From positions 1 to 41,128 of the forward strand of contig JANWXQ010000077.1 of assembly GCA_025057275.1 (NCBI GenBank): DNA of 41,128 nucleotides, read 5' to 3'. Each line of letters begins with the position of its first letter. The first letter of the stretch is position 1. The notes under the pieces are model-generated. The model was not told where the DNA came from and ran no database searches. It worked only from the letters and a program-made list of their open reading frames with translations. The stretch is from Chitinophagales bacterium. Its GTDB lineage: Bacteria; Bacteroidota; Bacteroidia; Chitinophagales; UBA10324. This document shows, piece after piece, positions 12,478 through 34,055 of this stretch. The translations under genes were made by a program, and so were the position numbers.

Positions 12478-12514
12478 AAGTTCACGACCAGCCCATCGCT
12501 GGTGCTTTTCTTGC

Positions 12515-12522
12515 TACCTTTA
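12515..12522 (+). promoter_or_regulatory. Candidate -7 element TACCTTTA
   Basis: TACCTTTA is one base from TAnnTTTG and lies in the divergent gap 12478-12568, 46 bp before the dioxygenase ATG. The same core, GCTACCTTTAT, recurs upstream of the small His-rich gene near 37699-37709. It would drive the kynurenine operon. Confidence 0.45.
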
Positions 12523-12568
12523 TCAGGCTAAATCTACAGGTCATAACCCTCAAAATCAAATTGATCCT

Positions 12569-13090: not shown

Positions 13091-13138
13091 GTCGCTTTTC
13101 CAATAGCCATTGTGCCGCCGGCCCACGTTGCGAATTGC

Positions 13139-14461: not shown

Positions 14462-14470
14462 TCAGAGGAA

Positions 14471-15850
14471 ATGGGGGAGAACATGAACCCACAGAGTTCT
14501 GTTGGCAATGAAGTAACCATTCTGGGTGCTGGTCTGGTGGGTAGCCTGTTGGCGGTGTATCTGGCCCGTAGGGGCTATTCTGTGGTCATCTACGAACGGC
14601 GCAGCGATTTGCGCCATACCGATGCAGCGGGAGGGCGTAGCATCAATCTGGCCTTAAGTGATCGGGGATGGAAGGGCCTGGCCGGCGCTGGTCTGGATGC
14701 AGAGGTTCGGCAGATGGCCATACCCATGTATGGCCGTATGGTTCATCATACCGATGGTACCCGTCAGCCGCAGCCCTACGGCCGAGCCGATCAGGCCATT
14801 TACAGCGTTTCCCGTGCCGAACTGAACCGACGTTTGCTGACGGCGGCAGAAAGCACCGGCCGGGTACGCATTGAGTTTGAGCGGTTCTGCTACAAGGTGG
14901 ACCTGAACCGGCGCCAGTTGCATTTTTCTAATGGTCCCGATGATCACCACATCCGGCATAGCGAGCGGTACAGCCTGCTCTTTGGAGCCGATGGTGCGTA
15001 CTCGGCGCTGCGTTTTGCCCTGATGTACACCGATCAGTTCAATGCAGCACAGACTTACATTGAACACAGCTACAAGGAACTGCATATACCCCCCGGCCCC
15101 GGCGGAAGCTGGCAGATGGAAAAAAACTACCTGCACATCTGGCCGCGAAAAAACTTCATGCTGATTGCCCTGCCCAATCCCGACGGTAGTTTCACCTGCA
15201 CGCTCTTTTTGCATACCCGCGGTCCGGAGTCTTTTGCTTCCTTGCAAACTCCTGAAGACGTGCAGCAGTTCTTTGCCCGCTATTTTGCCGATGCCGTTGC
15301 CCTAATGCCCCAATACCTAAATGATTTTTTCCGTAATCCGACATCTTCTTTGATGTATGTAACCTGTTTCCCCTGGGCTACAGAGCATACCTGCCTTATT
15401 GGCGATGCCGCTCATGCCATCGTACCCTTCTTTGGTCAGGGTATGAACTGTGGGTTTGAGGATTGCACCGAACTGAATGCGTTTATGGATTCGGAGCCTG
15501 ACTGGCCAGTGCTTCTGCGGCGCTTTGAGAATTCACGAAAGCCCAACGCCGATGCCATCTGCGAGCTGGCGCTGAACAACTTTATCGAAATGCGTGATCT
15601 GGTGGCTGACCCGCACTTTTTGCTAAAGAAAAAAATCGAGCAACGCCTGGCCGATCGCTATCCGCAACAATTTGTTTCCCCGTATCAAATGGTTTCGTTT
15701 TCTCACCTGCCTTATGCCGAAGCGTTGCAAAACGGTAGGCGCATTAATGCTGTTCTGGAGGAACTGGCAGAGCTGCCCGACTGGGAGCAACGGCTGGATG
15801 AGCCTCATTGGAAACGTCGTGTAGAGGGTATTTGCTTTGGTCCGCTGTAA
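14471..15850 (+). CDS. kmo: Kynurenine 3-monooxygenase
   Basis: A 459-residue FAD-dependent hydroxylase that converts L-kynurenine to 3-hydroxykynurenine with NADPH and O2. Visible motifs are the Rossmann GAGLVGS near residues 20-26, the ERRSDLR end of the second strand, GGRSINLALSDRG, which is characteristic of KMO, and the FAD-ribityl motif GDAAHAIVPFFGQGMNCGFEDC near 310-331. Eukaryotic KMO has C-terminal membrane helices; here the C-terminus is short and soluble-looking, as in bacterial enzymes. ATG codons at 14471 and 14483 are both possible; GGGGGAG lies 5 bp before the second, so translation might begin there. It is the last gene of the kynurenine operon and converges with scpB, 8 bp away. 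Confidence 0.95.
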   Translation: MGENMNPQSSVGNEVTILGAGLVGSLLAVYLARRGYSVVIYERRSDLRHTDAAGGRSINLALSDRGWKGLAGAGLDAEVRQMAIPMYGRMVHHTDGTRQPQPYGRADQAIYSVSRAELNRRLLTAAESTGRVRIEFERFCYKVDLNRRQLHFSNGPDDHHIRHSERYSLLFGADGAYSALRFALMYTDQFNAAQTYIEHSYKELHIPPGPGGSWQMEKNYLHIWPRKNFMLIALPNPDGSFTCTLFLHTRGPESFASLQTPEDVQQFFARYFADAVALMPQYLNDFFRNPTSSLMYVTCFPWATEHTCLIGDAAHAIVPFFGQGMNCGFEDCTELNAFMDSEPDWPVLLRRFENSRKPNADAICELALNNFIEMRDLVADPHFLLKKKIEQRLADRYPQQFVSPYQMVSFSHLPYAEALQNGRRINAVLEELAELPDWEQRLDEPHWKRRVEGICFGPL

Positions 15851-19159: not shown

Positions 19160-22100
19160 CTACTGCCTGGCCAAAGCTCCGCCCGAGGGGGTTGCTGTTC
19201 GGGTTTTGCCGGAAGCATCGGTGATCACCACCTCGGCAGCGGAGGAGGAAACAGGGATGACAGCAGAATTTTGCGATAGATAACCGTTGCCGATGTACCA
19301 TTCTACCCGCTGCCGGCTGCCGTCGGAGGCCAGGATTTCGGCATAGCGGTCGCCGGCGGCAAACGGGATACGGTAGTCCTGTGCTTTCAGCAGCGAAAAG
19401 GCAAACATCTTGTTGTTGTTGTTGGTTCCCAGCACCACCGGCTTCTGCCCTCTGCCGACATGAATCAGGGCAAGTCCTTTGGCGTCTTTATCGGAGAGAA
19501 AACCACTGAAGCGGCTGGGAACGTAGGTAAAGTTGCCTTTGCCATCGCCAAGGAGCACTTCACCGACGAATGCGTCGTTGCGTTCGGTTTCCGTTTCCTT
19601 ACCATAAAAATTTCCGTGATAGATAAGATCCAGGTTTCCGTCGCCGTTCACATCGTACGGCAGCATGCCGTACATGCAGGAAACCTGGGCCCGCAGCGGA
19701 AGCGAGCGGAGGGCGAAGCGGCCGTTGCCCAGATTTTCCACGTAGGAGCTGGCCAGGGTATTGGCGTAAAGGGTATAAGCTTCATTCAGTCCCTTAGGAC
19801 CGTAGATTTCTTCGGTGGACGACAAGGCAAAGCCGCTGTAGGTCTTGAATTCTTTGGTCAGGATCGGCATCTGTTCTGCGCTGTATTGCAGGTTTTTGGT
19901 TGGATACAGCTTGCCGTGATTGTAAAACGACAGAACCAGATCCGTGGTTCCGTTTTTGTCAAAGTCATGAGCATGGAGGAACACCGGCTCTTTATCGGTG
20001 GGGCAGTAGAAGCGGGTGTTTAGACCTTCATTACCAACCACATAATCCATGTCGCCGTCTTTGTCAAAATCAGCACCAACGATGCTGTTCCACCAGCCGC
20101 GGTGCGAACCAATGCCGGTGGCATCACTTACATTTTTAAAGGCCTTGCCATCGTTTTGGAGGAAACGAATGTTCATCCATTCGCCGGTGTAGATCAGATC
20201 CAGTTTTCCGTCGTTGTTGAAGTCGGTCCACAAGGCGGAGGTGACCAGTCCGGCTTGCTGCAATTCGGGAGCCAGATCGGCGCTGACGTCGGTGAAGCGG
20301 CCGCCGTCGTTGCGCAGCAACAGACTGGGAACGGCAAACGGATAGTGCTGGGGCTTAACGCGGCCGCCGACAAAAAGGTCCAGGTCGCCATCGGCATCGT
20401 AATCGCCGGCCACCACGCAGGAATTGCTGAGGGCCAGGGCAGGAATACGATCAGAGGCGTCCGAAAAATTCCCTTTGCCGTCGTTCAGGAAGAAGTAATC
20501 GCGGTAACGGCTGTCGTCCACGCCGAATTCATTGCCGCCCGTGGCCAGGTAAAGGTCCAGGTCGCCGTCGTTATCGGCATCAAAGAGCAGGCATCCGAGC
20601 ACGTCGGCTGTGGAGGGGAAGCTTTGATCGGTTTTTCGGGAAAACGTACCGTCGTTGTTCTGCAGGTACAGTGCCGATGACTGACGGAAGGCGCCACCCA
20701 CAATAAAATCTTCCAGCTTATCGCCGTTTACGTCGCCAACAGCCAGGCCCGGACCGAACTGGCTGTTTTTTTGCGGCAGCAGGAGTTCTTTCCGAAAGTC
20801 ATCGTATTGATTTTCCTGATGCTGGAAATCGATTCCAAGTTTTTCTGTTATGTCGGCAAAGAGCGGATCTGCAGCGGGTGCAGGAAGGGTTTTGTTAACT
20901 GCCTGCTGATACGACAACACATGCGTTTGATTGGCAGGCAGGTTATGATGTTCCGACACCTTGCCATCGGGCCACAAGACCTGAACCTTATCCACCTGCT
21001 GCAGCGATCCCAGTCCGAAGTGAATCAGATTCTGTGAAGAAGCCTGATAGCCGCGCACCACATGATGGGTCTGAAAGCGGATGCCTTGCGTAGTAAAGAG
21101 GGTGATTTCGGCGCCAATGGCCTGCCGGTTGCTTTCCGGACCCTGCAGCAAGAACCGGATATAGGTGTTGGGGATTTTCTGGGCGGCATTGTTCCGGTAC
21201 AGATAGGGCGACTGTTCGGTGTTGGACGTAATGATGTCCATGTCGCCATCGTTGTCGAAGTCGGCAAAAGCGGCGCCATGCGTGATGGTAGGTTGAAAGA
21301 ATCCCCACTCATAGGTTTTGTTGGCGAACGTCAGGTCGCCGTTGTTGCGGAAGATCAGGTTGGGATCGCGCAGTTTGCGGTTGTTGATGATGGCGGCAAT
21401 GCGGTTAAAAGCAGCACTATCGCCCCGGCGGGTGGCATCCCGCAGGCCCTGAACCAGTTCCCGCTCGTCGATGTTGAAGGTTTTGTAATAACCGTTGGAG
21501 ACGAACAGGTCTTCGAAGCCATCGTTGTCAAAATCCACGAACAGGGGGCTCCACGACCACTCGGTGGCATCAATGCCGGCCAGGCAGCCGATTTCACTGA
21601 AGGTGCCGTTGCCGTTGTTGAGTTGCAACATGTTGCGGACGTACTGATAGTGATAGCCGCTGGACACCATGGTGTGAAACTCGTTGCGGCGCTGAGCCAG
21701 CATGAAGCTGCGGCGCATGTAGGATTTATCAAATTTCATATCTACGCATACCACGTCGATCAGCCCGTCGTTGTTGATGTCGCTCACGTCGCTGCCCATG
21801 CCGAACAAGGGCGTTTTGCGCAGCACTTCACGTGCCACTTCCTTGAAGGTGCCGTTGCGCTGATTGATGAACAAGTAATCGTACATGGCAAAGTCGTTGC
21901 CCACATAAATATCGGGCCAGGTGTCGCCGTTGAAATCGCCGACGGTGGCGCTGAGGCTGTAGGCATGCGTGTTGATGCCGGCCTGTTTGGATACGTTGGT
22001 GAATTTGCCTTTGTCATTACGAAACAGCATGCTGGACTGATTGATGCCCTGCTCAATTTTTTCCAGGTTGTTGAAGCGCAGCTTTTCAATCCAATCGGTG

Positions 22101-22774
22101 GGATGATTGGCCAGAAACATGTCCAGATCTCCGTCTTTATCGTAATCAAAAAAGTTAGCCATTATGGAAAAGCTGCCGGGCACATCCAGACCATATTCTT
22201 TGGCGCGTTCCGAAAAAGTGCCGTCGCCGTTGTTGACGTACAACAAATTGGAAGAGGTGTCTTTCCAACGTGAGCGACAAACATAGATATCGTCCCAGCC
22301 GTCGTTGTTGATGTCGGTTATGGTTACACCGGTGCTCCAACCTTTGTTTTGAGTGGGAATGCCGGCCTGCTCGGTGATATCGCGGAACCGGAGATTACCC
22401 AGGTTGAGAAATAGCTTGTCGTGTACGATGTTGCCGGTGAAATATACATCGGGCAGCTGGTCACGGTTTACGTCCAGAACGGCTACGCCGCTTCCGTTGT
22501 AGAAGTAGTTGTACTGGTTGTTGTCGTTGCGCATGCGGAAGCCCACATCGTTGCTGAATGTGAGACCGGTGGATTTATCGGTTAGAATGTCAAAGAGTTT
22601 TCCGCTGGGTTTGTCCAATGGGTCAAACTGCAGGCTGTCGTATGAGGGAAAATCCACTACCGTTAGCCCTGCTTTCTGGTATCCGCTTTTGCAGGACCCC
22701 AGGGCCAGCAAGCCAAAGAGCAGGAACAGAGGCCTGCTCAGTTGCCGGATGGATTTTATTGCTTTCATGTTCAT
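19160..22774 (-). CDS. CRTAC1-like double-propeller lipoprotein (first paralogue)
   Basis: A 1204-residue lipoprotein: signal peptide with lipobox LGSC (acylated Cys28), an N-terminal FG-GAP/VCBS region, a central ASPIC/UnbV domain (near 545-615, GAEITLFTTQG, RGYQASSQNLIHFGLG, VLWPDGK), then a second FG-GAP/VCBS region. Counting DxDxDG-type calcium loops (for example DINNDGWDD, DYDKDGDLD, DFDNDGDMD) gives seven before and seven after the ASPIC domain, as expected for two seven-bladed integrin-alpha-like propellers. No acidic stretch follows the acylated cysteine, so surface export by that signal is not indicated. Calcium binding is predicted from the loops; the ligand or substrate is unknown. 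It lies 21 bp downstream of a paralogue with the same architecture and is probably co-transcribed with it. Confidence 0.88.
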   Translation of the reverse strand: MNMKAIKSIRQLSRPLFLLFGLLALGSCKSGYQKAGLTVVDFPSYDSLQFDPLDKPSGKLFDILTDKSTGLTFSNDVGFRMRNDNNQYNYFYNGSGVAVLDVNRDQLPDVYFTGNIVHDKLFLNLGNLRFRDITEQAGIPTQNKGWSTGVTITDINNDGWDDIYVCRSRWKDTSSNLLYVNNGDGTFSERAKEYGLDVPGSFSIMANFFDYDKDGDLDMFLANHPTDWIEKLRFNNLEKIEQGINQSSMLFRNDKGKFTNVSKQAGINTHAYSLSATVGDFNGDTWPDIYVGNDFAMYDYLFINQRNGTFKEVAREVLRKTPLFGMGSDVSDINNDGLIDVVCVDMKFDKSYMRRSFMLAQRRNEFHTMVSSGYHYQYVRNMLQLNNGNGTFSEIGCLAGIDATEWSWSPLFVDFDNDGFEDLFVSNGYYKTFNIDERELVQGLRDATRRGDSAAFNRIAAIINNRKLRDPNLIFRNNGDLTFANKTYEWGFFQPTITHGAAFADFDNDGDMDIITSNTEQSPYLYRNNAAQKIPNTYIRFLLQGPESNRQAIGAEITLFTTQGIRFQTHHVVRGYQASSQNLIHFGLGSLQQVDKVQVLWPDGKVSEHHNLPANQTHVLSYQQAVNKTLPAPAADPLFADITEKLGIDFQHQENQYDDFRKELLLPQKNSQFGPGLAVGDVNGDKLEDFIVGGAFRQSSALYLQNNDGTFSRKTDQSFPSTADVLGCLLFDADNDGDLDLYLATGGNEFGVDDSRYRDYFFLNDGKGNFSDASDRIPALALSNSCVVAGDYDADGDLDLFVGGRVKPQHYPFAVPSLLLRNDGGRFTDVSADLAPELQQAGLVTSALWTDFNNDGKLDLIYTGEWMNIRFLQNDGKAFKNVSDATGIGSHRGWWNSIVGADFDKDGDMDYVVGNEGLNTRFYCPTDKEPVFLHAHDFDKNGTTDLVLSFYNHGKLYPTKNLQYSAEQMPILTKEFKTYSGFALSSTEEIYGPKGLNEAYTLYANTLASSYVENLGNGRFALRSLPLRAQVSCMYGMLPYDVNGDGNLDLIYHGNFYGKETETERNDAFVGEVLLGDGKGNFTYVPSRFSGFLSDKDAKGLALIHVGRGQKPVVLGTNNNNKMFAFSLLKAQDYRIPFAAGDRYAEILASDGSRQRVEWYIGNGYLSQNSAVIPVSSSAAEVVITDASGKTRTATPSGGALARQ

Positions 22775-22795
22775 GGCTTCTTTCTCTGAATGGGA

Positions 22796-25700
22796 TTAGC
22801 GGGTGGCTACAGCGTTGTTCTCGTAAGCAATACGTGAATTGCCGCTTCGGTCTGTAACCGTAATTTTTTGAACTACGGCAGGGTTGTAAGCCAGACGGGG
22901 AGAGTTCTGCGACATATAACCGCTGCCCAGATGGACTTCATGACGTTGTTTGCGACCGTCGGCGAGCAGCAATTCAGCGTAGCGGTCGTTGTAGGTCAAT
23001 TCCAGCACAGCGGGTTTGTGCATGAGTTCATGGGCGAACATGGCATCGTTGTTATTGGTGCCCAGTATAACCGGCCGCTTTTCCTTGCCCACATAAATCA
23101 GTGCCAATGCTTTGCCGTCTTTGTTGTTCAGAAATCCGGATTCTTTCAGGGGCATGACGGTGAATTTGCCGGTGCCGTCGCCCAGCAGGGTCAACCCCAT
23201 AAAGGCATCCTGCTTTTCCACTTCGGTTTCGTTGGAAAAGAAGTTGCCGTGAGCCACCAGGTCAACGTTTCCGTCCTGATTTACATCCAGGGGAACCATG
23301 CCATACATGCAGGAGAACTGAGCCTGCAGCGGAAGGGGCTGGAAGGAAAATGTTCCGTTGGCATTGTTGATAAACACGCCCGAGTGGAAGTCCGTGGCTT
23401 TGAGGTGAAGGGCTTTCTGCAATGCTTCTTTACCAAAGACCTGATCGGTGGTAGCCAGAGCGAACTGCTTATACAAAGGGAATTTTTCGCCCAGGGAGGG
23501 CACCTGCTCCGTCATGGTTAAGCGGGTTTTGACCGGATATGGTTTTCCGAAGTTGTAAACGGAAAGCAGCAAATCGTTGGTGCCGTTTTGGTCAAAGTCA
23601 GCGCAGTAAAGTTCTACGGGCTCATCCGCTTTGGGCTGATAGTATCGGCTGTTCAAGCCTTCATTACCGGCAATGTAATCTAGGTCGCCGTCGTTATCTA
23701 CATCAGCGGCAACAATGCTGTTCCACCAGCCGGTGATGTGTTCGATGCCGGCCTCACGGGTTTTGTTTACCAGCTTTCCGTTTTCGTTGAGGAATACCAC
23801 CAAGGGCATCCATTCTCCTACCACCAACAGGTCGGTTTTGCCATCGTTGTTGTAGTCGGTCCATAAGGCGCTGCATACCAGGCCGGCCTCTTCCAACTCG
23901 GGTGCCACTTCATTGGTGACATCCGTAAAGCGACCGCCTTCGTTTCGCAGGATCTGACTGGGGGCCGGCAAGGGATAGCTGGCCGGCACGACGCGACCGC
24001 CGACAAACAAATCCCAATCGCCATCGCTGTCGTAATCACCGGCCACCACGCAGGAGCCGCTGATGCGGCTGTCGGGAAGCGCATCGGCTGCCAGGCGGAA
24101 GTTGCCCTTGCCGTCATTGAGATACAGGAAGTCCTTAAGCCACGGGTCGTTCTGTTTGAATTCATTGCCACCGGAAACGCAGTATAAATCAGGGTAGCTG
24201 TCGCCGTTGGCATCAAAGAACAGCACACCAAGGATTTCGGCATTTTTTTCATTTTCCCAGGGTTGGGCAGGTGCTTTGCTGAAAGTGCCGTTGGGCTGCT
24301 GCAGGTACAGAGCGTTGGACATGCGGGCAGCTCCGGCTACCAAAAAATCTTCCAGTCCGTCGCCGTTGACATCGGCCACAGCCAAACCGGGACCATAGCG
24401 GCTCAGCTTATGGGGCAGCAGAATTTCCTTGCGGAAGTCTTCGTATTCGTTTTCCGTATGAACAAAATCAATTTTTGTTTTTTGTGTTGCGTCAGTAAAC
24501 AGCGGCTGGGTAACGGACTTGCCGAATACAAATTTTTCCGGCGTGGACTGTTTGTAGTCCAGCGTGTACACGCGGTTAACTGGTAATTGGGTCAATTGCT
24601 GGGTTCGTCCATCAGGCCAAACGATCACCAGCCGGTCAATCATCTGATCCTTACCCATGCCAAAGTGCACGATATTTTGCGAGGCAGACTGATAGCCGCG
24701 GACTGTGTGGTGCTGGGCCATTTGCAATCCAAGCGGTGACCAGATGTAAATTTTTGCCCCTATGCCATCGGGATTGTTGGGCTGCCCGCGCAGCGAGAAG
24801 TGCACCCAGTTGTTATTGGAAAATCGTTCCTGATTGTTGCGGCAAATCAGAGCGGGCACTTCGTGGTTGTTCATGATGATGTCCATGTCGCCATCGGCGT
24901 CCAGATCGGCAATGGCAGCCCCATGGGTGATGGTCGGGTAATTCAGTCCCCAGTTTTCCATTTCACGGGTAAACTGGTAGCCGTTCTGGTTTTTGAAGAT
25001 GTAGTTAACGGCCATCAGCTTTTTCTTACTAACAGCCTTGAACAGTTTGTTGTACGTGGCACTGTCTTTACGGCGGGTGGCATCGCGCATGGCCTGATAG
25101 AGCTCCCGCTCATCCACGTTAAGCCAGCGGTAGTAGCCATTGGGGATATAGAGGTCTTTAAGGCCGTCCTGGTCGAAATCGCACATGATGGGACCCCACG
25201 ACCAATCGGTGGCATCTACCTGCGCCAGGTTGGCAATTTCGCTGAAGCTGTTAAAACCGCTGTTGATGTGCAGCGTGTTTTTGACATACTGATAATGATA
25301 GCCGCTGGTGACCATGTTGTTGAACTCATTGCGGCGCAGACCCAGGGCAAAGGAGCGACGCAGGTAAGAGTGATCAAAGCGCATGTCGGCCGTAACAATG
25401 TCCTGGTAGCCATCGTTGTTTATGTCGCCGATGTCAACACCCATGGAGAACATGGATACCTTGCCCAGCAGCGAGTGCGACATATCCTTGAACGTGCCAT
25501 CTTTCTGATTGATGTACAGGTGGTCATACATGGCAAAGTCATTGCAGCCGTAGATGTCCATCCAACCGTCATCATTGATGTCGGCGGCAATGACAGCCAA
25601 ACCGAAACCGTGGTTATTGATGCCGGCTTTCTTGGATACGTCCACGAATTTGCCGTTCTCGTTACGAAAGAATTTGTCGCTCTGATTTATGCCTTTTTCA

Positions 25701-26398
25701 ATTTTTTCCAGATTGTTGAAGCGCATGCGCTCCACGTAATCGGTGGGGTGATTTTTGACGAAAAGATCTAAATCGCCGTCGTTATCAGCGTCAAAGAATA
25801 CGGCGCCCATGGAATAGCAATCGATGCATTCCACTCCGTATTCCTTGCCGCGCTCGGTGTAGGTGCCATCGCCGTTGCTGACATAAAACAGGTTGGTTAC
25901 CGAGTCTTTCCAGCGGGAGCGGAGCACGTAGAGATCTTCAAAGCCGTCGCGGTTAATATCGCAGGTGGCGACGCCGGTACTCCAGCCTTTGTTTTTCAGG
26001 GGTATGCCGGCCTGCTCGGTGACATCGCGGAAGCGCATGCCCCCTTCATTGACATACAGGCGGTCGGGCACGATGTTTCCGGTAAAATACAGATCGGGCA
26101 GCGAGTCGTTGTTGTAATTGATCACAGCCACCCCTGCGCCGTTGTAGTAGTTTACGTAGAGGTTGTTATCGGCCATGAAGCCAAACTGAACTTTATTGAT
26201 GAAATCAATGCCGGTGCTTTTGCTGCCCAACAGGTCAAACATTTTACCGCTGGGCACATCCGGATAATTAAACTTGGTGCTGTCCGGAGGAGGAAAATCA
26301 AAATTCTTTTTCAGGGCACTTTCGTAGTTGGTGCAATGCATCATTGGCGTAACCAGTACCAGCAATGCGAATGCGGCCAGTGCGTTTCGAAAACTCAT
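22796..26398 (-). CDS. CRTAC1-like double-propeller protein (second paralogue)
   Basis: A 1200-residue paralogue of the downstream gene with the same order: signal sequence, seven calcium-loop repeats (DINRDGFED, DADNDGDLD, DLDADGDMD and others), ASPIC/UnbV domain (GAKIYIWSPLG, RGYQSASQNIVHFGMG, VIWPDGR), seven further repeats. The open frame begins at 26473, but the ATG at 26398 starts the signal sequence MSFRNALAAFALLVLVTP. A cysteine follows at MMHC, in the position of the paralogue's lipid-modified Cys, but His at -1 is a poor lipobox, so acylation is uncertain. Its leader is about 80 nt from the TATCTTTG element at 26483-26490 and holds a small hairpin. It is the first gene of the leftward arm and diverges from a pair of shorter CRTAC1-like genes. 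Confidence 0.88.
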   Translation of the reverse strand: MSFRNALAAFALLVLVTPMMHCTNYESALKKNFDFPPPDSTKFNYPDVPSGKMFDLLGSKSTGIDFINKVQFGFMADNNLYVNYYNGAGVAVINYNNDSLPDLYFTGNIVPDRLYVNEGGMRFRDVTEQAGIPLKNKGWSTGVATCDINRDGFEDLYVLRSRWKDSVTNLFYVSNGDGTYTERGKEYGVECIDCYSMGAVFFDADNDGDLDLFVKNHPTDYVERMRFNNLEKIEKGINQSDKFFRNENGKFVDVSKKAGINNHGFGLAVIAADINDDGWMDIYGCNDFAMYDHLYINQKDGTFKDMSHSLLGKVSMFSMGVDIGDINNDGYQDIVTADMRFDHSYLRRSFALGLRRNEFNNMVTSGYHYQYVKNTLHINSGFNSFSEIANLAQVDATDWSWGPIMCDFDQDGLKDLYIPNGYYRWLNVDERELYQAMRDATRRKDSATYNKLFKAVSKKKLMAVNYIFKNQNGYQFTREMENWGLNYPTITHGAAIADLDADGDMDIIMNNHEVPALICRNNQERFSNNNWVHFSLRGQPNNPDGIGAKIYIWSPLGLQMAQHHTVRGYQSASQNIVHFGMGKDQMIDRLVIVWPDGRTQQLTQLPVNRVYTLDYKQSTPEKFVFGKSVTQPLFTDATQKTKIDFVHTENEYEDFRKEILLPHKLSRYGPGLAVADVNGDGLEDFLVAGAARMSNALYLQQPNGTFSKAPAQPWENEKNAEILGVLFFDANGDSYPDLYCVSGGNEFKQNDPWLKDFLYLNDGKGNFRLAADALPDSRISGSCVVAGDYDSDGDWDLFVGGRVVPASYPLPAPSQILRNEGGRFTDVTNEVAPELEEAGLVCSALWTDYNNDGKTDLLVVGEWMPLVVFLNENGKLVNKTREAGIEHITGWWNSIVAADVDNDGDLDYIAGNEGLNSRYYQPKADEPVELYCADFDQNGTNDLLLSVYNFGKPYPVKTRLTMTEQVPSLGEKFPLYKQFALATTDQVFGKEALQKALHLKATDFHSGVFINNANGTFSFQPLPLQAQFSCMYGMVPLDVNQDGNVDLVAHGNFFSNETEVEKQDAFMGLTLLGDGTGKFTVMPLKESGFLNNKDGKALALIYVGKEKRPVILGTNNNDAMFAHELMHKPAVLELTYNDRYAELLLADGRKQRHEVHLGSGYMSQNSPRLAYNPAVVQKITVTDRSGNSRIAYENNAVATR

Positions 26399-26437
26399 TG
26401 GTAAATGGATTTTTAATTTTTTGAATTCAAATGAATT

Positions 26438-26454
26438 GTGGTTGTTTGAACCAC
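26438..26454 (-). promoter_or_regulatory. Small hairpin in the leader
   Basis: GTGGTT and AACCAC form a perfect 6-bp stem around a 5-nt loop in the predicted 5' leader of the leftward propeller operon. There is no T tract, so it is not a terminator; it could affect message stability or translation. Confidence 0.3.
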
Positions 26455-26482
26455 GTACGTCCAGTCTGCACAATTATGTAGG

Positions 26483-26490
26483 CAAAGATA
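26483..26490 (-). promoter_or_regulatory. -7 promoter element TATCTTTG
   Basis: On the minus strand TATCTTTG matches TAnnTTTG exactly. It lies 84 bp upstream of the ATG at 26398 and would drive the two long propeller genes. No good -33 element is visible, which fits a promoter needing an activator or an alternative sigma factor. Confidence 0.5.
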
Positions 26491-26517
26491 TTGGCAGATG
26501 CTATTCGCACTTCGTAT

Positions 26518-26535
26518 TTAATGTTCATTAACATT
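26518..26535. promoter_or_regulatory. Overlapping inverted repeats, candidate operator
   Basis: Two perfect inverted repeats overlap: TTAATG-TT-CATTAA (26518-26531) and AATGTT-CATT-AACATT (26520-26535). They lie between the divergent promoters of the two propeller operons, 27 bp upstream of the leftward -7 element. This is a plausible binding site for a dimeric regulator acting on both arms, though AT-rich palindromes also arise by chance. Confidence 0.4.
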
Positions 26536-26590
26536 CTAAACCGATATGTTTTCCCGTCGGTGTTTCTGCCTCACGGCCTGATGTTAACGC

Positions 26591-26617
26591 TATGCAAAGC
26601 ACTGCTTTTGGTATGCA
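26591..26617 (+). repeat. Direct repeat TATGCA-N15-TATGCA
   Basis: TATGCA occurs at 26591-26596 and again at 26612-26617, 21 bp start to start, or two helical turns. The pair flanks the possible -33 element of the rightward operon (TTTTG at 26606-26610), a typical place for an activator site. The repeat is short and may be coincidental. Confidence 0.3.
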
Positions 26618-26634
26618 TTGACCCAGTAATTTTG
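26608..26634 (+). promoter_or_regulatory. Promoter TTG-N16-TAATTTTG
   Basis: An exact -7 element TAATTTTG (26627-26634) is preceded by TTG at 26608-26610, spacing 16 bp, close to the range reported for Bacteroidota promoters. The ATG of the first 753-residue gene is 28 bp further on. This is among the best promoters in the window. Confidence 0.6.
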
Positions 26635-26662
26635 CCCCCACAGCTCCAAACCCGATTCAATC

Positions 26663-28924
26663 ATGAAGTTTAAAACCATCGCTCTTCTTTTTGTAGGGGT
26701 AGTTGTTTTGGCAGGGGTGGCTTTCGCCGTTGTGCGCTGGGCCGGTCAAGATTCGCCCGAAATAAAATATACTGCTACCACCATGCCTGAAATTTATTAT
26801 GAGATCATTGACAATCTGCCTCCTACCATCCTGTACAGCCGCAACGATGTGATTCTGCCGTACTATCAACAGCTGCTGGCTAAGGACCCGGAAAATCCCT
26901 ATCTGAAATTTCAGGTGGGTATTCAACACATTTTGTACGGCACCACGGAAGAAGGATTGAAAATTCTTGAGGAACTGGAAGCCAGCAACTCGTTTATGAC
27001 CAATCCGAATTTTCTCAGGGTTGCAGACGGGGAGAACTGGTCGGTGGTGGACTCACTCAAACAGTTTCTGGCGTTGGGCTATCTGCGCCTGGCCGAGCAG
27101 ACCAACTGTATCATGAACCACAACGATGAAAGCTGTGTGTTTCCCATTTCCGGCGCCGGTGTTCACATCAACAAAGACCCGGCCCGCGAAGCCATCCGGC
27201 GGTACCTGCAGCTCATTAAGGAATATCCGGACGACCATCTGTGTGTTTGGCTGCTCAACATTGCCCTTCAGGCTTACGGCAGTGTGCCACCGGAAGTTCC
27301 GGCCAATCTGGTCATCTCTAAAGACGCCCTTCCCAATGAATACAACATCGGCCGCTTTGACGACATTGCCGTAGACCTGGGTGTGGAAAATATGCTCGAT
27401 GCAGGAGGGGTTGCCGTGGATGACTACGATAACGACGGATACATCGACATCATCAATGGAGCTGTGCGGCTCAAAGGGCAGGTACGCTACTTCCACAACA
27501 ACGGCGACGGCACCTTCAGTGACTGGACCGAGCGTGCCGGCCTTAAAGGCGCTTACGAGGGTTTGAATCTGGTGCAGGTGGACTACAACAACGACGGGTG
27601 GATGGATTTCATCATTCCGCGCGGAGGCTGGAAGGCCAAGGCAGGATTCCTGCCTTCCTCTCTTTATCGGAATAACGGCGACGGCACCTTTACCGATGTG
27701 ACCATAGAAGCTGGTCTGTTGCAGTTTGCCCCGACCCAGTCAGTGGAAGCAGCCGATATCGACCTAGATGGCGACGTGGACCTCTTCTTTGGCAATGAGT
27801 ACTTCACGTACAGTAAGATGTTTCTGAACAACGGCGATGGTACCTTCAAGGATGTGGCCAAAGAGGTGGGTATTTACTTCAAGGGTTATGTAAAAGGTTC
27901 CTCTTTCGGCGACTACAACAACGACGGCTATCCTGACCTGTATATCAGCGATTTCGGAAACAAGAACAGACTCTACCGCAACAATGGTCCGGATAAAAAT
28001 GGCCTGGTCACCTTCACGAACGTAGCGGAAGAAGCCGGCGTAACCGAACCCAAAAAGAGTTTCCCCTGCTGGTTTTTTGACTACAACAATGACGGCTGGC
28101 AGGACATTTACGTTTCAGCCTACAAGCCGGGCTTTATTTCCGCCAAAGAATTTCTGGGCCTGCCCATGGATTCGACGATGTTCCCCTGCCTGTACCGCAA
28201 CAACGGCGACGGCACGTTTACCAACGTGACGCTGGAAACCAACATAGCTTACGAATCCTTTACCATGGGCTGCAATTACGGTGATCTGGACAACGACGGT
28301 TGGCTGGATTTTTACCAGAGCATCGGCGCACCCGATTATCGAGCCATTTTCCCCAACCGCATGTACCGCAACAACCAGGGCAAACATTTCCAGGATTGCA
28401 CCATCAGCGGAGGATTCGGTCAGTTGCAGAAAGGGCATGGCGTTTCCTTCTGCGACTTTGACTTCGACGGCGATCAGGATGTCTATACCGACTACGGCGG
28501 CTTTTTTTACGGCGATGTATTTCAGAATTCCTTTTACCTCAATCCCGGGCATGGCAACAACTGGGTCAATGTCCGGTTTGAAGGCACCGATAACAACCGC
28601 TTTGGGGTAGGTTGCCGCGTAAAACTCACCTTCACCGATCAGGGCGTTAAGCGCCATACCTATCACGTCATCAGTAAGGGAGCCAGCTTTGGCAGTAATC
28701 CCATCCGGTTGCAGGCCGGGGTCGGCAAGGCAACTGTAATTGAAGAAATGGAAGTTATCTGGCCGAAAGGACAGAAAAAGCAGGTGTTCCGCAACATTCC
28801 GGTCAATACCCTGTATCATTGCCGGGAAGATGCGGATCAGCTCAACCCGCTGTCCATCAAGCCAATAACCTTCATTCTGCGCAAGCCGGATCAGCAGCAG
28901 CAACATCATCATCACATGATGTAA
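26663..28924 (+). CDS. Membrane-anchored CRTAC1-like propeller protein A
   Basis: A 753-residue protein with an N-terminal hydrophobic segment (MKFKTIALLFVGVVVLAGVA) that may be an uncleaved anchor, as no lipobox is seen. Residues 35-230 are mainly helical and TPR-like and include the motif NHNDESCVFPISGAGVH with two nearby cysteines. Seven DxDxDG-type loops follow (DYDNDGYID, DYNNDGWMD, DIDLDGDVD, DYNNDGYPD, DYNNDGWQD, DLDNDGWLD, DFDFDGDQD), consistent with one seven-bladed calcium propeller, and then an ASPIC/UnbV domain (GVGCRVKLTF, KGASFGSNPIRLQAGVGKA, VIWPKGQ). The C-terminus is Gln- and His-rich and ends in HHHHMM. A second copy follows after 38 bp. The function is unknown; periplasmic or surface binding is inferred. 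Confidence 0.88.
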   Translation: MKFKTIALLFVGVVVLAGVAFAVVRWAGQDSPEIKYTATTMPEIYYEIIDNLPPTILYSRNDVILPYYQQLLAKDPENPYLKFQVGIQHILYGTTEEGLKILEELEASNSFMTNPNFLRVADGENWSVVDSLKQFLALGYLRLAEQTNCIMNHNDESCVFPISGAGVHINKDPAREAIRRYLQLIKEYPDDHLCVWLLNIALQAYGSVPPEVPANLVISKDALPNEYNIGRFDDIAVDLGVENMLDAGGVAVDDYDNDGYIDIINGAVRLKGQVRYFHNNGDGTFSDWTERAGLKGAYEGLNLVQVDYNNDGWMDFIIPRGGWKAKAGFLPSSLYRNNGDGTFTDVTIEAGLLQFAPTQSVEAADIDLDGDVDLFFGNEYFTYSKMFLNNGDGTFKDVAKEVGIYFKGYVKGSSFGDYNNDGYPDLYISDFGNKNRLYRNNGPDKNGLVTFTNVAEEAGVTEPKKSFPCWFFDYNNDGWQDIYVSAYKPGFISAKEFLGLPMDSTMFPCLYRNNGDGTFTNVTLETNIAYESFTMGCNYGDLDNDGWLDFYQSIGAPDYRAIFPNRMYRNNQGKHFQDCTISGGFGQLQKGHGVSFCDFDFDGDQDVYTDYGGFFYGDVFQNSFYLNPGHGNNWVNVRFEGTDNNRFGVGCRVKLTFTDQGVKRHTYHVISKGASFGSNPIRLQAGVGKATVIEEMEVIWPKGQKKQVFRNIPVNTLYHCREDADQLNPLSIKPITFILRKPDQQQQHHHHMM

Positions 28925-28962
28925 ATCCTTCTTACCCTGACGCTTTCAACGCAATTTTTTTC

Positions 28963-31290
28963 ATGAAACGCAAAACGATTTTCTTTCTGATCGTCATCGG
29001 CATAGGCATAGCTGCAGGCGCGGTTTATGCTTACAAGAAGCTGGCCAGTGATTACGATGGCAGGGTGCACTACACGGCCACCACCATGCCTGAGATTTAC
29101 TATGAAATTATTGACCAGTTGCCGCCAACTATTCTGTACGGCCGCAACGACGTGATCCTGCCCTACTACCAGAAATTGTGGAGCCAGGATCCGAACAATT
29201 CCTGGCTGAAGTTTCAGGTTGGCATGCAGCACATCTTTTACGGAACCACGGAAGAGGGACTGAAGCTGCTGGAAGAGCTGGAAGCGGATGAGCAATTTCT
29301 GCGCAACCCGAAGTTTAACACCAAGAAAAAGAATGACGAATGGTCGGTAGTGGATTCGCTGAAGAACTTCCTGGCATTGGGCTATCTGCGATTGGCCGAA
29401 CAGACCAATTGCATCATGAACCACAACGACGAAAGTTGTGTATTTCCCATTTCGGGCGGGGGAGTACATATCCACAAAGACCCCGCAGCCGAAGCCATTC
29501 GCCGCTACCTGAAGCTCATTCAGGAGTATCCTGACGATCCGCTGAACATCTGGCTGCTGAACATTGCGCTTCAGGCTTATGGCAGTGTGCCGCCTGAGGT
29601 GCCGGCTCATCTGGTTATTCCCAGGGAACGCATGCCCGATGAATACAACATCGGCCGCTTCAACGATATTGCCACTGATCTGGGGGTGGAGAATCTTTTG
29701 GATGCCGGAGGAAATGCCGTGGATGACTTTGATAACGATGGCTACATCGACATCATCAATGGCAGCGCCCGTTTGAAAGGCCAAATCCGTTTTTACCGCA
29801 ACAATGCCGACGGCACCTTCAGCGACTGGACGGAACGCGCCGGACTTATAGGTGCTTACGAAGGTTTGGGCATGATGCAGTTTGATTACAACAACGACGG
29901 ATGGATGGATTTTATGATCACCCGAGGCGGCTGGAAAGCCAAAGCCGGCTTCTTGCCCCCGTCGCTTTATCGCAACAACGGAAATGGCACTTTTACTGAC
30001 GTCACCGTCGAGGCTGGCCTCCTCCATTTTCTACCCTCCCAAACGGCTGAAGCCGCAGACATTGATCTGGACGGCGACCTGGACCTGTTCATCGGCCACG
30101 AATACCATACCTACAGTCGGATGTACCTCAACAACGGTGATGGTACCTTCCGCGATGTTACCCGCCCCACCGGCTTGTTCTTCAAGGGCTTTGTGAAAGG
30201 CTGCTCGTTTGGTGATTACAACAACGATGGGTATCCCGATCTGTTTGTCAGCGATTTCGGTCGTCCCAACAAACTGTTTCGCAACAACGGTCCGGGTAAA
30301 GACGGTTTGGTAACGTTTACCGAAGTGGGCAAAGAAGCCGGCGTGACCAATCCCATCTGGAGTTTCCCCTGCTGGTTCTTTGACTACAACCACGACGGAT
30401 GGGAAGACATCTACATTTCAGCGTACAAACCCGGTTACATTATCAATTCCTGCCGTGAGTTTCTCGGACTGCCTATGGATTCCACCATGTTCCCCTGTCT
30501 GTACCGCAATAATGGTGACGGAACATTTACCAATGTTGCCCGGCCAACCAACGTGGCTTATGAAACCTTTGCCATGGGTTGCAACTACGGTGATCTGGAC
30601 AATGACGGCTGGCTGGATTTCTTCCTGAGTATCGGCGCTCCTGATTACCGCGCCATATTTCCCAACCGCATGTATCGCAACAATCAGGGCAAATACTTTC
30701 AGGATTGCACGCTCAGCGGTGGCTTTGGTCAGTTACAAAAAGGTCATGCCGTATCCTACTGCGATTTCGATTACGATGGCGATCAGGATATCTACACGGA
30801 TTATGGCGGCTTTTTCTATGGTGATGTGTTTCAAAATGCCTTTTACCTGAATCCCGGACACGGCAACAACTGGATTAATGTCCGGTTGGAAGGAACAGAA
30901 AACAACCGTTTCGGCGTAGGATGCCGTGTGAAGCTGACCTTCGTCGACAACGGCCAGCGCCGAAATACCTACTACACCATCAGCAAAGGGGCCAGCTTTG
31001 GCAGCAACCCGATTCGTTTGCAGGCCGGTCTGGGTAAGGCTACGGTAGTGGAAGAGATGGAAATCATCTGGCCGAAGGGACAAAAAAAGCAGGTGTTCAA
31101 TAACGTGCAGGCCAATCGGATTTACCTGTGCAAAGAGGACGCCAGCGAGCTTCAGGTGCTTGACCTGAAACCGCTGGTACTGCGCAGCCGCGAAGTGATG
31201 GCTGAAATGGGATTACCCGTTCAACCGCACAGCCATGGTCATCACGCTCATGGCCATCAGCTGCAGGGTCTGCACCTCATGCAGCATTAA
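28963..31290 (+). CDS. Membrane-anchored CRTAC1-like propeller protein B
   Basis: A 775-residue tandem paralogue of the preceding gene, similar along its whole length; by eye roughly three quarters of residues match. The order is the same: hydrophobic N-terminus (MKRKTIFFLIVIGIGIAAGA), helical region with NHNDESCVFPISGGGVH, seven calcium loops (DFDNDGYID to DYDYDGDQD) and an ASPIC/UnbV domain. The C-terminus is longer and His-rich (PHSHGHHAHGH), which may bind a transition metal. The frame is open to 28819, inside the previous gene, but the ATG at 28963 is where similarity to the paralogue begins. The two genes form one transcript; a hairpin and AT-rich structures after the stop separate them from the haloperoxidase-like gene. 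Confidence 0.88.
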   Translation: MKRKTIFFLIVIGIGIAAGAVYAYKKLASDYDGRVHYTATTMPEIYYEIIDQLPPTILYGRNDVILPYYQKLWSQDPNNSWLKFQVGMQHIFYGTTEEGLKLLEELEADEQFLRNPKFNTKKKNDEWSVVDSLKNFLALGYLRLAEQTNCIMNHNDESCVFPISGGGVHIHKDPAAEAIRRYLKLIQEYPDDPLNIWLLNIALQAYGSVPPEVPAHLVIPRERMPDEYNIGRFNDIATDLGVENLLDAGGNAVDDFDNDGYIDIINGSARLKGQIRFYRNNADGTFSDWTERAGLIGAYEGLGMMQFDYNNDGWMDFMITRGGWKAKAGFLPPSLYRNNGNGTFTDVTVEAGLLHFLPSQTAEAADIDLDGDLDLFIGHEYHTYSRMYLNNGDGTFRDVTRPTGLFFKGFVKGCSFGDYNNDGYPDLFVSDFGRPNKLFRNNGPGKDGLVTFTEVGKEAGVTNPIWSFPCWFFDYNHDGWEDIYISAYKPGYIINSCREFLGLPMDSTMFPCLYRNNGDGTFTNVARPTNVAYETFAMGCNYGDLDNDGWLDFFLSIGAPDYRAIFPNRMYRNNQGKYFQDCTLSGGFGQLQKGHAVSYCDFDYDGDQDIYTDYGGFFYGDVFQNAFYLNPGHGNNWINVRLEGTENNRFGVGCRVKLTFVDNGQRRNTYYTISKGASFGSNPIRLQAGLGKATVVEEMEIIWPKGQKKQVFNNVQANRIYLCKEDASELQVLDLKPLVLRSREVMAEMGLPVQPHSHGHHAHGHQLQGLHLMQH

Positions 31291-31312
31291 GAATCTGGCC
31301 TGACCGGCACGA

Positions 31313-31332
31313 TTTCCGGAGTCCTCCGGAAA
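31313..31332 (+). repeat. Hairpin downstream of the propeller pair
   Basis: TTTCCGGA and TCCGGAAA form a perfect 8-bp stem around the loop GTCC, 23 bp after the stop codon. No T tract follows, so it may protect the 3' end of the message rather than terminate it on its own. Confidence 0.45.
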
Positions 31333-31387
31333 ATGAAATACAAAGTATTTGGGGCGCTAAAGAATGCCGTGGCCCAAATGCAGGCGG

Positions 31388-31446
31388 TGACTTTTTAAAA
31401 TTTTTTGTTAATAAAAGTCAAAACCCGATGCAAGATGGGGGTTTTG
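31388..31446 (+). terminator. Two adjacent stem-loops, probable terminator
   Basis: TGACTTTT (31388-31395) pairs with AAAAGTCA (31413-31420) around an AT-rich loop. Directly after, CAAAACCC (31419-31426) pairs with GGGTTTTG (31439-31446), the A-rich/T-rich flank pattern of many Bacteroidota terminators. The two stems share two bases, so they could be mutually exclusive. They separate the propeller pair from the haloperoxidase-like operon. Confidence 0.45.
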
Positions 31447-31502
31447 TTACGTCTTTTGTGAGCTGAAAAACTACCCTCCCATCAGGTCTTAGCCAGGGGT
31501 GA

Positions 31503-31533
31503 TTGTTTATTACGTTCAACCAAAATGCTTTTG
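31503..31533 (+). promoter_or_regulatory. Candidate promoter TTG-N20-TGCTTTTG
   Basis: TTG at 31503-31505 is followed after 20 bp by TGCTTTTG (31526-31533), one base from TAnnTTTG and at a spacing reported for Bacteroidota promoters. It lies 21 bp before the haloperoxidase-like ATG at 31555, so the three-gene operon could be expressed apart from the propeller genes. Confidence 0.45.
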
Positions 31534-31554
31534 CAAAAAATGAGAAATAAAACC

Positions 31555-32916
31555 ATGAAGCAATGCTCGCTTATTGCCTTGTTGGCTGCTTTCACAGTTG
31601 CCATGGCAGGATGTCAAAAAGGACAAAAAACCCTTGAGTTTAATTCCGTATCCACACCGGCTACTGAGTTGGATAACTCGGTTGCTCTTGCCTGGGTGGA
31701 TATGTTGCTGGATCAGGTACGATTTCAGCGTGTGGGTCCCCCGCCTGCAGCACGGGCTATGGCTTATCTGGGCGTGGCCATGTATCAATCTGTTGCTCCC
31801 GGCATTGCCGGTGCGTATTCGTTGGAAGGTCAGTTAAAGGATCTGGAGAATCTGCCCAAAGCTGACCCGAAGCTGGAGTACGACTGGCCTACCGTGCTCA
31901 ACAATTGCGCCTACCTGGTCTGCGACGAAGGATTGGCCCGCTACATGGGCCCCAACACCGTTGCCCTGAACAACCTGCGCGATAAGATCAACCACATGCG
32001 CGATTCTCTGCTGGGCAAACCTGAAGTGTTTCAGCGCTCATTAGAATACGGCAACGCGCTGGGCCAGGCTCTGGTAGCTTACATGAAAACCGACCAGTAT
32101 GACTATACCCGCGAGCACAACGAATACGAATCGCCCCCGCGCACCAATAACCCCGAATGGTACGAAGTTACCGATGTGGACAAAACACCGTTTGAGCCCT
32201 TCTGGGGAACCCTGCGGCCTATGGGATTGGACACCACCGAGCTGTGTATGATGCAGCCTACCATTCCGTACAGCTCCGATCCCAATTCCGAGTTCTACAA
32301 ATTCAATGTCAAGTTGTACGGAATTGACACTTCTTTTTCTGAATACGAACGCATGACAGCACTCTACTGGGCTGATGATCCCGTGGAAACCTTTACTCCT
32401 CCCGGCCACTGGATGAAAATCGCCAAGCAGCAGGTACGCAAGAACAATTACAACCTGGCCCAAACGTGTGAACTGTATGCCTACCTCGGCATGGCTGTTC
32501 ACAATGCCGGTATTTCCGTTTGGAGAATGAAATATCAGATCAACCTGCTGCGACCGAAGACCTACATCAATGAGGTGTTGGATAAACCCGATTGGGAGCC
32601 CTATCTGGAAACCCCGCCGTTCCCGGAATATCCCTCCGGACACTCCGGATTTTCCGGTGCTGCTGCTGGCATCCTGACCCATTTCTTTGGCGATGTAGAG
32701 TTTACCGACAGCACCAACATGATGATCGGCCTCAAGCCCCGCACGTTTAAATCCTTTAAGGCTGCTGCAGAAGAGGCTGCCTGGTCGCGCATGTATGGCG
32801 GCATTCACTTCGAAGCAGGTATCGTGGACGGCATACGTACCGGTACTTGCATTGCTGAAAACCTGCTCAGGAAAGTGAAAATGGGAGGTGCCTCCCAGCC
32901 GCTGGCAGCCAAATAA
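31555..32916 (+). CDS. Vanadium haloperoxidase/PAP2-like lipoprotein
   Basis: A 453-residue lipoprotein (signal MKQCSLIALLAAFTVAMAGC, acylated Cys20) of the helical PAP2/vanadium-dependent haloperoxidase superfamily. The vanadate/phosphate-binding set is visible: K326 to R333 in the KX6RP motif (KYQINLLRP), PSGH with Ser361, Gly362 and His363, and SRX5H with Arg412 and His418. The Asp often found four residues after the last His is Gly here (HFEAG). These motifs are shared by haloperoxidases, which oxidise halides with H2O2, and by acid phosphatases, so the reaction cannot be decided from sequence. The frame opens at 31525, but the ATG at 31555 gives the signal peptide. It starts an apparent operon with a secreted unknown protein and a haem lipoprotein, next to the CRTAC1-like genes. 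Confidence 0.88.
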   Translation: MKQCSLIALLAAFTVAMAGCQKGQKTLEFNSVSTPATELDNSVALAWVDMLLDQVRFQRVGPPPAARAMAYLGVAMYQSVAPGIAGAYSLEGQLKDLENLPKADPKLEYDWPTVLNNCAYLVCDEGLARYMGPNTVALNNLRDKINHMRDSLLGKPEVFQRSLEYGNALGQALVAYMKTDQYDYTREHNEYESPPRTNNPEWYEVTDVDKTPFEPFWGTLRPMGLDTTELCMMQPTIPYSSDPNSEFYKFNVKLYGIDTSFSEYERMTALYWADDPVETFTPPGHWMKIAKQQVRKNNYNLAQTCELYAYLGMAVHNAGISVWRMKYQINLLRPKTYINEVLDKPDWEPYLETPPFPEYPSGHSGFSGAAAGILTHFFGDVEFTDSTNMMIGLKPRTFKSFKAAAEEAAWSRMYGGIHFEAGIVDGIRTGTCIAENLLRKVKMGGASQPLAAK

Positions 32917-32952
32917 ACTCCGAAACCTGTAACCCATTAAAAATCTGCTCAC

Positions 32953-33492
32953 ATGAAAGTGAAAACGATTATCCTGCTGCTGACCCTTCTGGTTGGCGGT
33001 GTTGCCCAGGCTCAGGTGCTGATGAAAGAATACCTAACTCAGAATCAGAAAGGCGTGGTGGACAAATCCGTCAACTGGCCGGGCAAAAAGGTGTATTACG
33101 AAATGCGATTTGACAGCTCGCGCGCCATGAAGTTTGAAAACTATGGCACTACGCGTTACTACTACACGCTGTTGTTGGCCGACAATCCCGCCATGGCCAA
33201 TGCCATTCAGATCCCCGGTATGGTTCGCGACCTGGTCATCACTACTTATTTTGAGTTTTATTTCAACAACGGAAAAGAGTCCAAGACCTTTACCTTGGTG
33301 TACGACAAAAACAATAAGTGGTACCGCATCAAGTTTGCTCCTCAGTGGGGCTGTCGGCGTGAAGAACTCTGGAAACGGGTTAATTTCATTTCCAGCTATG
33401 AGCAATTGCTCAACAGCATGGTTACCCAGATGGATAACAACCTGAATCTGGATTGCTACAAAGGGCAGAAGCCGGTAATTCTGGATTATTAG
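32953..33492 (+). CDS. Secreted protein of unknown family
   Basis: A 179-residue protein with a clear signal peptide (MKVKTIILLLTLLVGGVAQA, cleavage before Q21). I do not recognise the family. The mature part is rich in aromatic residues and Lys/Arg, with alternating patterns such as KKVYYEMRFD, TRYYYTLLL and YFEFYFNNGK that suggest a beta-rich fold. It has two cysteines (WGC and LDC) that could form one disulfide. It starts 36 bp after the haloperoxidase-like gene and ends 5 bp before the haem lipoprotein gene, so co-transcription is very likely and a shared function plausible. It could be a substrate-binding or accessory subunit; this is inference. Confidence 0.8.
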   Translation: MKVKTIILLLTLLVGGVAQAQVLMKEYLTQNQKGVVDKSVNWPGKKVYYEMRFDSSRAMKFENYGTTRYYYTLLLADNPAMANAIQIPGMVRDLVITTYFEFYFNNGKESKTFTLVYDKNNKWYRIKFAPQWGCRREELWKRVNFISSYEQLLNSMVTQMDNNLNLDCYKGQKPVILDY

Positions 33493-33497
33493 AGCCA

Positions 33498-34055
33498 ATG
33501 ATGCGGCCAGTTCTGCTCACACTGTGCCTTTGGTGGGCGTTTGGCTGTACGATGACGCCGCAAAAGCCGGATGCCAGTCAATATCGTCGGCTGGGAGATT
33601 CCATTGCCACGTTGACCCAACAGGCATTGCTTAAAAACGTCGTGCAGGCGGTAACCGACAGTGGTTTTTCTTATGCCATCCGTTACTGCAATGTGCACGC
33701 CGTTGCTTTGACTTCTGCATTAGCCGGAACGGGCCAGGTGCTATCCATTCAGCGGCTTAGCGACAAGAACAGAAATCCTGACAATCGCATTACGGAGGCT
33801 GCCGACCAAAGTGCGTTTGCCTATTTACAGTCGGGTGGTGCCGATACACTTATTTTCCGGGAAGGAGAGGCAGTATATTACAAGTCCATCAAAATCATGA
33901 TGCCCACCTGTCTGAAATGTCACGGCAGCGACGCCGATTTGGATGCCAGTGTGGCCGAAGTCTTGAAGGAAAAATATCCGGGCGATTTGGCGCGCAATTA
34001 CCGGATGGGTGATCTCCGGGGTATGTGGAAAATTGTAATGAAAACTGAAAGTTAA
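33498..34055 (+). CDS. DUF3365/Tll0287-like haem-binding lipoprotein
   Basis: A 185-residue protein with a signal sequence and a probable lipobox (MMRPVLLTLCLWWAFGC). The body matches the Tll0287-like (DUF3365) domain: an N-terminal helix with LTQQALLKNVVQAVTDSG, then AIRYCNVHAVALTSAL, then RNPDNRITEAADQ, and a single c-type haem motif CLKCH (Cys138, Cys141, His142) near the C-terminus. Such domains bind one covalent haem and are thought to sense or transfer electrons or small ligands in the periplasm. Two ATGs are adjacent (33498 and 33501) and either could be used. Its 5-bp distance from the previous gene places it in the haloperoxidase-like operon and suggests redox chemistry there. Confidence 0.85.
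   Translation: MMRPVLLTLCLWWAFGCTMTPQKPDASQYRRLGDSIATLTQQALLKNVVQAVTDSGFSYAIRYCNVHAVALTSALAGTGQVLSIQRLSDKNRNPDNRITEAADQSAFAYLQSGGADTLIFREGEAVYYKSIKIMMPTCLKCHGSDADLDASVAEVLKEKYPGDLARNYRMGDLRGMWKIVMKTES

Follow-up and report, generated by a model that had tools for sequence, protein, structure and literature searches.

Vanadium-haloperoxidase-type enzymes as recurrent neighbours of giant FG-GAP/ASPIC propeller lipoproteins: a candidate envelope system of the Bacteroidota

Human CRTAC1, the namesake of a large group of FG-GAP/ASPIC-UnbV proteins, is a single secreted protein of ~660 residues, and no function for its bacterial relatives turned up in the open papers that we searched. The vanadium-dependent haloperoxidases (VHPOs) of Bacteroidota that resemble the Zobellia galactanivorans iodoperoxidase ZgVIPO1 are likewise mostly without known substrates. 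Arenibacter sp. C-21 carries five or more ZgVIPO-like genes, and a membrane haloperoxidase acting with a peroxide-making oxidase has been proposed to explain its iodine accumulation (PMC5064120). Here we analysed a stretch of 41,128 nucleotides from a Chitinophagales bacterium (contig JANWXQ010000077.1; hereafter the window), in which seven genes, A to G, bring propellers of the CRTAC1 type together with an enzyme of the ZgVIPO1 type. We give a probability of roughly one half to the view that this locus belongs to an undescribed Bacteroidota envelope system, where VHPOs co-evolve with giant FG-GAP/ASPIC propeller lipoproteins as their dedicated partners, and where one branch has in addition an obligate new subunit, the cysteine-paired small protein F, and a shared divergent promoter.

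The seven genes and the gap between their two arms are as follows.

A, 19160..22774, minus strand: lipoprotein of 1204 residues with FG-GAP/VCBS repeats and ASPIC/UnbV domain; core propeller, paralogue 1 (Pfam, orthologues, propeller tree).
B, 22796..26398, minus strand: paralogue of A, 1200 residues, opening the leftward operon; core propeller (Pfam, orthologues, propeller tree).
Gap between the arms, 26399..26662, 264 bp: putative divergent promoter gap common to both arms (conserved -7 elements).
C, 26663..28924, plus strand: membrane-anchored FG-GAP/ASPIC protein of 753 residues; family-specific addition (Pfam, presence/absence).
D, 28963..31290, plus strand: paralogue of C, 775 residues; second copy restricted to the window's genus (Pfam, neighbourhood comparison).
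E, 31525..32916, plus strand: ZgVIPO1-like lipoprotein of the VHPO family; core (phmmer, site residues, tree).
F, 32953..33492, plus strand: secreted protein of 179 residues with no known family; core (profile searches, linkage).
G, 33498..34055, plus strand: Tll0287-like lipoprotein with one c-type haem site (CLKCH); genus-specific accessory (Pfam, 5b82 match).

The open reading frames confirmed the gene positions given in a first-pass annotation of the window, and the sister species G008 was observed to carry all seven genes in identical order at 61–92% identity; the locus is therefore no assembly accident. The genome is a 2.48-Mb assembly of 108 contigs, 99.4% complete and 0.05% contaminated. 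Genes within each arm are closely spaced (A/B 21 bp, C/D 38 bp, E/F 36 bp, F/G ~6 bp), with D and E 234 bp apart. The listed reading frame of B begins at a TTG at 26473, upstream of the start that we assigned, and the starts of D and G are ATG codons inside longer listed frames (that of G begins at 33453). Export or anchor segments, which the annotation had claimed for all seven proteins, were seen at every N-terminus and were assigned by eye: A, B, E and G show a lipoprotein-like Cys, F has a signal peptidase I-like N-terminus, and C and D have a transmembrane anchor at the N-terminus with no Cys. The four propeller assignments also stood, as each of A to D matched FG-GAP_3 and UnbV_ASPIC above the curated Pfam cut-offs. 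Strict calcium-type motifs numbered 12 in B, 10 in A and 7 each in C and D.

We compared E with solved structures using phmmer. Residues 13–453 align to chain residues 11–449 of ZgVIPO1 (PDB 4cit; 1.2e-59), and the vanadate-site residues K336, R343, S371-G372-H373, R422 and H428 of E align with those of the ZgVIPO1 site. Among 53 aligned homologues, the Lys, Arg, Gly, His, Arg and His of this site are invariant, and Ser371 is present in 51. E thus has the sequence hallmarks of a VHPO, namely full-length similarity to a solved VHPO and a complete set of vanadate-site residues. The earlier label of haloperoxidase-like can therefore be sharpened: judged by its sequence, E represents a subfamily of the Zobellia iodoperoxidase type, new within a known kind of enzyme. 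The W-to-HW segment has 18 residues in E and in all aligned F-partnered enzymes; in 37 of the 41 VHPOs without F it has 30, and this longer segment, which holds the rim loop and marks the ZgVIPO1 subfamily, is not present in E.

Two cysteines set the F-partnered enzymes apart. Cys241 and Cys442 of E were found in 12/12 aligned F-partnered enzymes and, by reading, also in the enzyme of G455 (L070); among the 41 VHPOs without F, C241 occurs once and C442 never. The AlphaFold2 model of E had a predicted local distance difference test score (pLDDT) of 32, at which the Cys241–Cys442 distance, and hence a disulphide within E as opposed to one between E and F, is not readable. The short rim loop was tried as a hallmark of the F partnership and rejected, as a sister clade without F shares it. 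The enzymes of this sister clade (L043, L047, L052 and L066) have no long propeller within 8 kb, and they form a natural comparison group for the contribution of F and the propellers.

F had been called unrecognised, and it gave no Pfam match at E-value <= 0.001, no NCBIfam match and nothing significant among PDB sequences; NCBIfam had no match for any of A to G. By these profile searches F constitutes a new small protein family. Its own profile found it in 13 of the 249 sampled genomes of the window's order, spanning 10 genera and 4 families; a sample from the class (n=395) added one genome from beyond the order. A scan of named genome contigs with narrow F patterns returned three loci. Counting only loci where the contig extends upstream of F, we observed F directly downstream of an E-type VHPO in 13/13, over five families and two orders. 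The F-partnered VHPOs form one clade (support 100/99) that is present in all 200 bootstrap trees. Two cysteines of F, Cys134 and Cys168, are invariant. AlphaFold2 on F (four sequences; pLDDT 52, predicted template modelling score 0.39) suggested, in coarse outline only, some eight strands and a helix at the C-terminus; Foldseek with this weak model found nothing (best E-value 0.18) and was not used.

The propellers follow the same pattern. Every F locus with upstream contig has one or two propellers of about 1200 residues head-to-head with the rightward arm that bears E and F. Orthologues of A were found in G008 (85%), G006 (69%), G005 (66%) and G004 (64%), and those of B in G008, G006, G005, G009 and G004. 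The propellers that adjoin F-partnered VHPOs fall into one clade, with 99 in the Shimodaira–Hasegawa-like approximate likelihood ratio test, and separate duplications of the A/B type occurred in f1 and f14; the propeller tree was built quickly and contains some long branches. The outer flanks vary: G000 and G008 have ribonuclease Y there, G006 a purine phosphorylase, G005 a two-component pair and G455 a thiolase, all these names except ribonuclease Y being read from the sequence. A/B, E and F are thus a conserved core unit across genera, families and two orders. The first-pass annotation had proposed all seven genes as one set, which would fail if related genomes held the propellers and the haloperoxidase operon in unrelated places. 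They do not; the two stay linked.

The core is nevertheless smaller than the proposed set. The C/D propellers (750–775 residues) are limited to the window's family and even there are missing in G005; they are non-core. A C-type protein is present in G008, G006 and G009 and missing in the G005, f12, f14, f18 and G455 loci. In the G006 locus (L014, 10898–12187), a porin-like protein of 429 residues sits between the C-type propeller and E. G was rightly described as a one-haem DUF3365 lipoprotein: it matches the Tll0287-like family (formerly DUF3365, PF11845; 1.5e-15, 58.3 bits against a cut-off of 24.1) and PDB 5b82, and has a single CxxCH. Its place in the set did not hold, as it adjoins F in G000 and G008 only, that is, in the window's genus. 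G is not core, and the link between haem and haloperoxidase is weak because of this confinement.

We then looked at VHPOs without F, taking 40 neighbourhoods from high-scoring hits, one per genome. In 20 of the 40, a long propeller lies no more than ~8 kb away, against an expectation of 1.0 (2.6%) computed from the ASPIC/UnbV genes per genome (P about 2e-22). Orientation is mixed in these pairs and constantly head-to-head in the F loci. No constant third partner was seen beside the other propeller–VHPO pairs (SusD in 4/67 and TonB in 3/67 flanking proteins). In Mantel tests, distances between enzymes and between their neighbouring propellers correlated with r 0.82 overall, 0.95 within the F loci, 0.84 without the F loci and 0.76 once GTDB family was removed. 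The window's own genome shows this matching among paralogues: on contig C105 (L017, 4640–9848), a second VHPO adjoins a propeller of 1105 residues from the other clade, followed by a membrane protein of 166 residues, and this locus has no F. Near two plasmid VHPOs of Adhaeribacter and Hymenobacter no propeller is annotated; the pairing, though common, is therefore not universal. On the Adhaeribacter swui plasmid (L072, 1366–13046), the surroundings of the VHPO have a halide flavour: they hold a chloride channel and a CrcB fluoride exporter, along with three PAP2 phosphatases and a TonB receptor.

The two arms had been described as sharing one regulatory gap, and the promoter elements strengthen this. 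The Bacteroidota-type -7 element is TAnnTTTG. Three candidate sites were located in the window's gap.

26483..26490, minus strand: candidate -7 element TATCTTTG of the B-A operon (conserved divergent elements).
26524..26533, plus strand: candidate operator TTCATTAACA (fixed place in 9/10 homologous gaps).
26627..26634, plus strand: candidate -7 element TAATTTTG of the rightward genes (conserved divergent elements).

Divergent TAnnTTTG / CAAAnnTA elements, one per direction, occur in 10/11 homologous gaps; in 1000 shuffles the mean was 0.15 gaps and the maximum 2. A TTAACA/TGTTAA site lies 37–43 nt beyond the propeller-side -7 element in 9/10 gaps, and such a site accompanies ~4% of the other CAAAnnTA sites in all fetched loci. 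The TTCATTAACA motif occurs 11 times genome-wide against 9 for the reversed control; with no genome-wide enrichment it can be no more than a local operator. A/B, E and F are probably co-regulated from this one divergent promoter gap. A perfect short inverted repeat, TTTCCGG/CCGGAAA, without a T run, lies 3' of D at 31312–31334 and may divide the transcription of C-D from that of E-F.

We infer that the core works as one envelope machine, and at about even odds (~0.5) we favour an oxidation of halides, driven by peroxide and located at the envelope, in which the propellers serve as docking proteins. The module would have three parts: the long propeller lipoprotein(s) A/B, the VHPO lipoprotein E and the small exported F as obligate partner. 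E would bind vanadate, take H2O2 and oxidise a halide to hypohalous acid outside the membrane, with iodide or bromide the most likely halide because E is related to the Zobellia iodoperoxidase. As a secreted protein that probably bears a disulphide, F may bind E and control either the rim of the active site or the entry of substrate. A/B, as calcium-dependent propellers, would dock E, or hold the polymer or ligand that the oxidant hits. C/D may enlarge the docking surface in the window's family, and G, in the window's genus alone, could sense haem or carry electrons in an optional role.

Several observations weigh against this picture. Half of the 40 neighbourhoods without F have no propeller, and VHPOs of the superfamily can therefore function without one. 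E does not have the 12-residue active-site rim loop of ZgVIPO1, which contains the active-site residue Tyr263; its halide chemistry may differ, and the halide preference of ZgVIPO1 is for this reason not transferable to E. In the window, no -7 element for E can be recognised in the 234-bp gap between D and E. Matched trees can arise from joint inheritance of neighbours without contact, and the chemistry of E as well as the contacts among E, F and the propellers are inferred.

E may instead be an envelope phosphohydrolase of the PAP2 type, with the propellers catching a phosphorylated polymer (teichoic-like, nucleic acid or phosphoglycan), E stripping phosphate from it and vanadate acting merely as an inhibitor. 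PAP2 is indeed the sole name that Pfam gives to E (5.7e-11). Bacterial non-specific acid phosphatases have the signature K-x6-RP ... PSGH ... SR-x5-H-x3-D, which E shares up to the last His. The final Asp, at the +4 position, is present in some relatives of E (L021, L027 and L028), but in the window's E this place is taken by Gly432. We dropped this Asp as a test for excluding a phosphatase, as it varies within the F clade. The 440-residue similarity of E is, moreover, to a solved iodoperoxidase, whereas the ~220-residue acid phosphatases reach just 0.17–0.19 against E in phmmer, and we regard a phosphatase as unlikely.

Somewhat less probable still is that the propellers are themselves the substrate: E would halogenate or cross-link tyrosines of A/B (and of the matrix), making a surface layer or adhesive harder, and F would have a targeting or inhibitory role. 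That the propellers and F are the most constant partners of E, and that the flanks of other propeller–VHPO pairs hold no constant third partner, would fit such a role; however, we identified no oxidation-specific sequence feature in A/B in a check that did not extend to tyrosine enrichment. Families often retain gene order, and neighbours can be co-inherited without a joint function. Yet the linkage persists over five families and two orders despite differing outer flanks, the 20 propeller neighbours of other VHPOs stand against one expected, and the lineage-specific cysteines co-segregate with the lineage-specific partner F. Passive linkage thus appears very improbable.

An envelope system of dedicated VHPO and propeller partners would, if real, place two large orphan groups in a functional setting, the haloperoxidases with no known substrate and the bacterial CRTAC1-like proteins with no known function, found in 158/249 and 180/249 of the sampled genomes of the order, respectively. 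A recurrent co-evolving pair offers a testable partner for each, and hints at the site and the target of hypohalous acid production at the cell surface. F can be expressed and assayed directly alongside E.

Elsewhere in the window, a 1042-residue AddA-like protein (8555–11683) has a UvrD-type helicase fused to a PD-(D/E)XK nuclease domain. At 12251–15850, three neighbouring genes, apparently for 3-hydroxyanthranilate dioxygenase, kynureninase and a kynurenine 3-monooxygenase-like flavin adenine dinucleotide enzyme, make up a kynurenine-pathway-like block.

Finally, we compared the locus with known systems. The open literature that we searched, outside which most subscription literature lies, had no paper with both haloperoxidase and FG-GAP, and none among the papers listed joined CRTAC1 or VCBS to haloperoxidase; the combination of VHPO, propeller and F is probably undescribed, and the novelty of the pairing is provisional. 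Arenibacter sp. C-21, also of the Bacteroidota, offers the nearest described physiology, with its ZgVIPO-like genes and the proposed peroxide-driven oxidation of iodide at the membrane. No propeller or F partner is described in that account, and its mechanism, too, has the standing of a proposal. Sus-type glycan uptake loci likewise use Bacteroidota surface lipoproteins, and SusD or TonB receptors flank some other propeller–VHPO pairs; in contrast, the seven genes include no SusC/SusD pair and no glycoside hydrolase, and the TonB-plug protein at 38121–40445 is separated from them by unrelated genes. G shares its domain and CxxCH with the Tll0287/DUF3365 haem proteins (PDB 5b82), but is a single-domain lipoprotein and a genus-specific rider on the locus. 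The propellers A to D have the repeat and domain content of CRTAC1-type proteins (PF13517, PF07593); unlike CRTAC1, A and B are lipoproteins of ~1200 residues from a clade that adjoins F-partnered VHPOs. E resembles ZgVIPO1 (PDB 4cit/4usz) in full-length similarity, vanadate-site residues and Bacteroidota origin, and differs in having no 12-residue loop, which ZgVIPO1 and the E2-type enzymes share, in carrying Cys241/Cys442 and in its tie to F.

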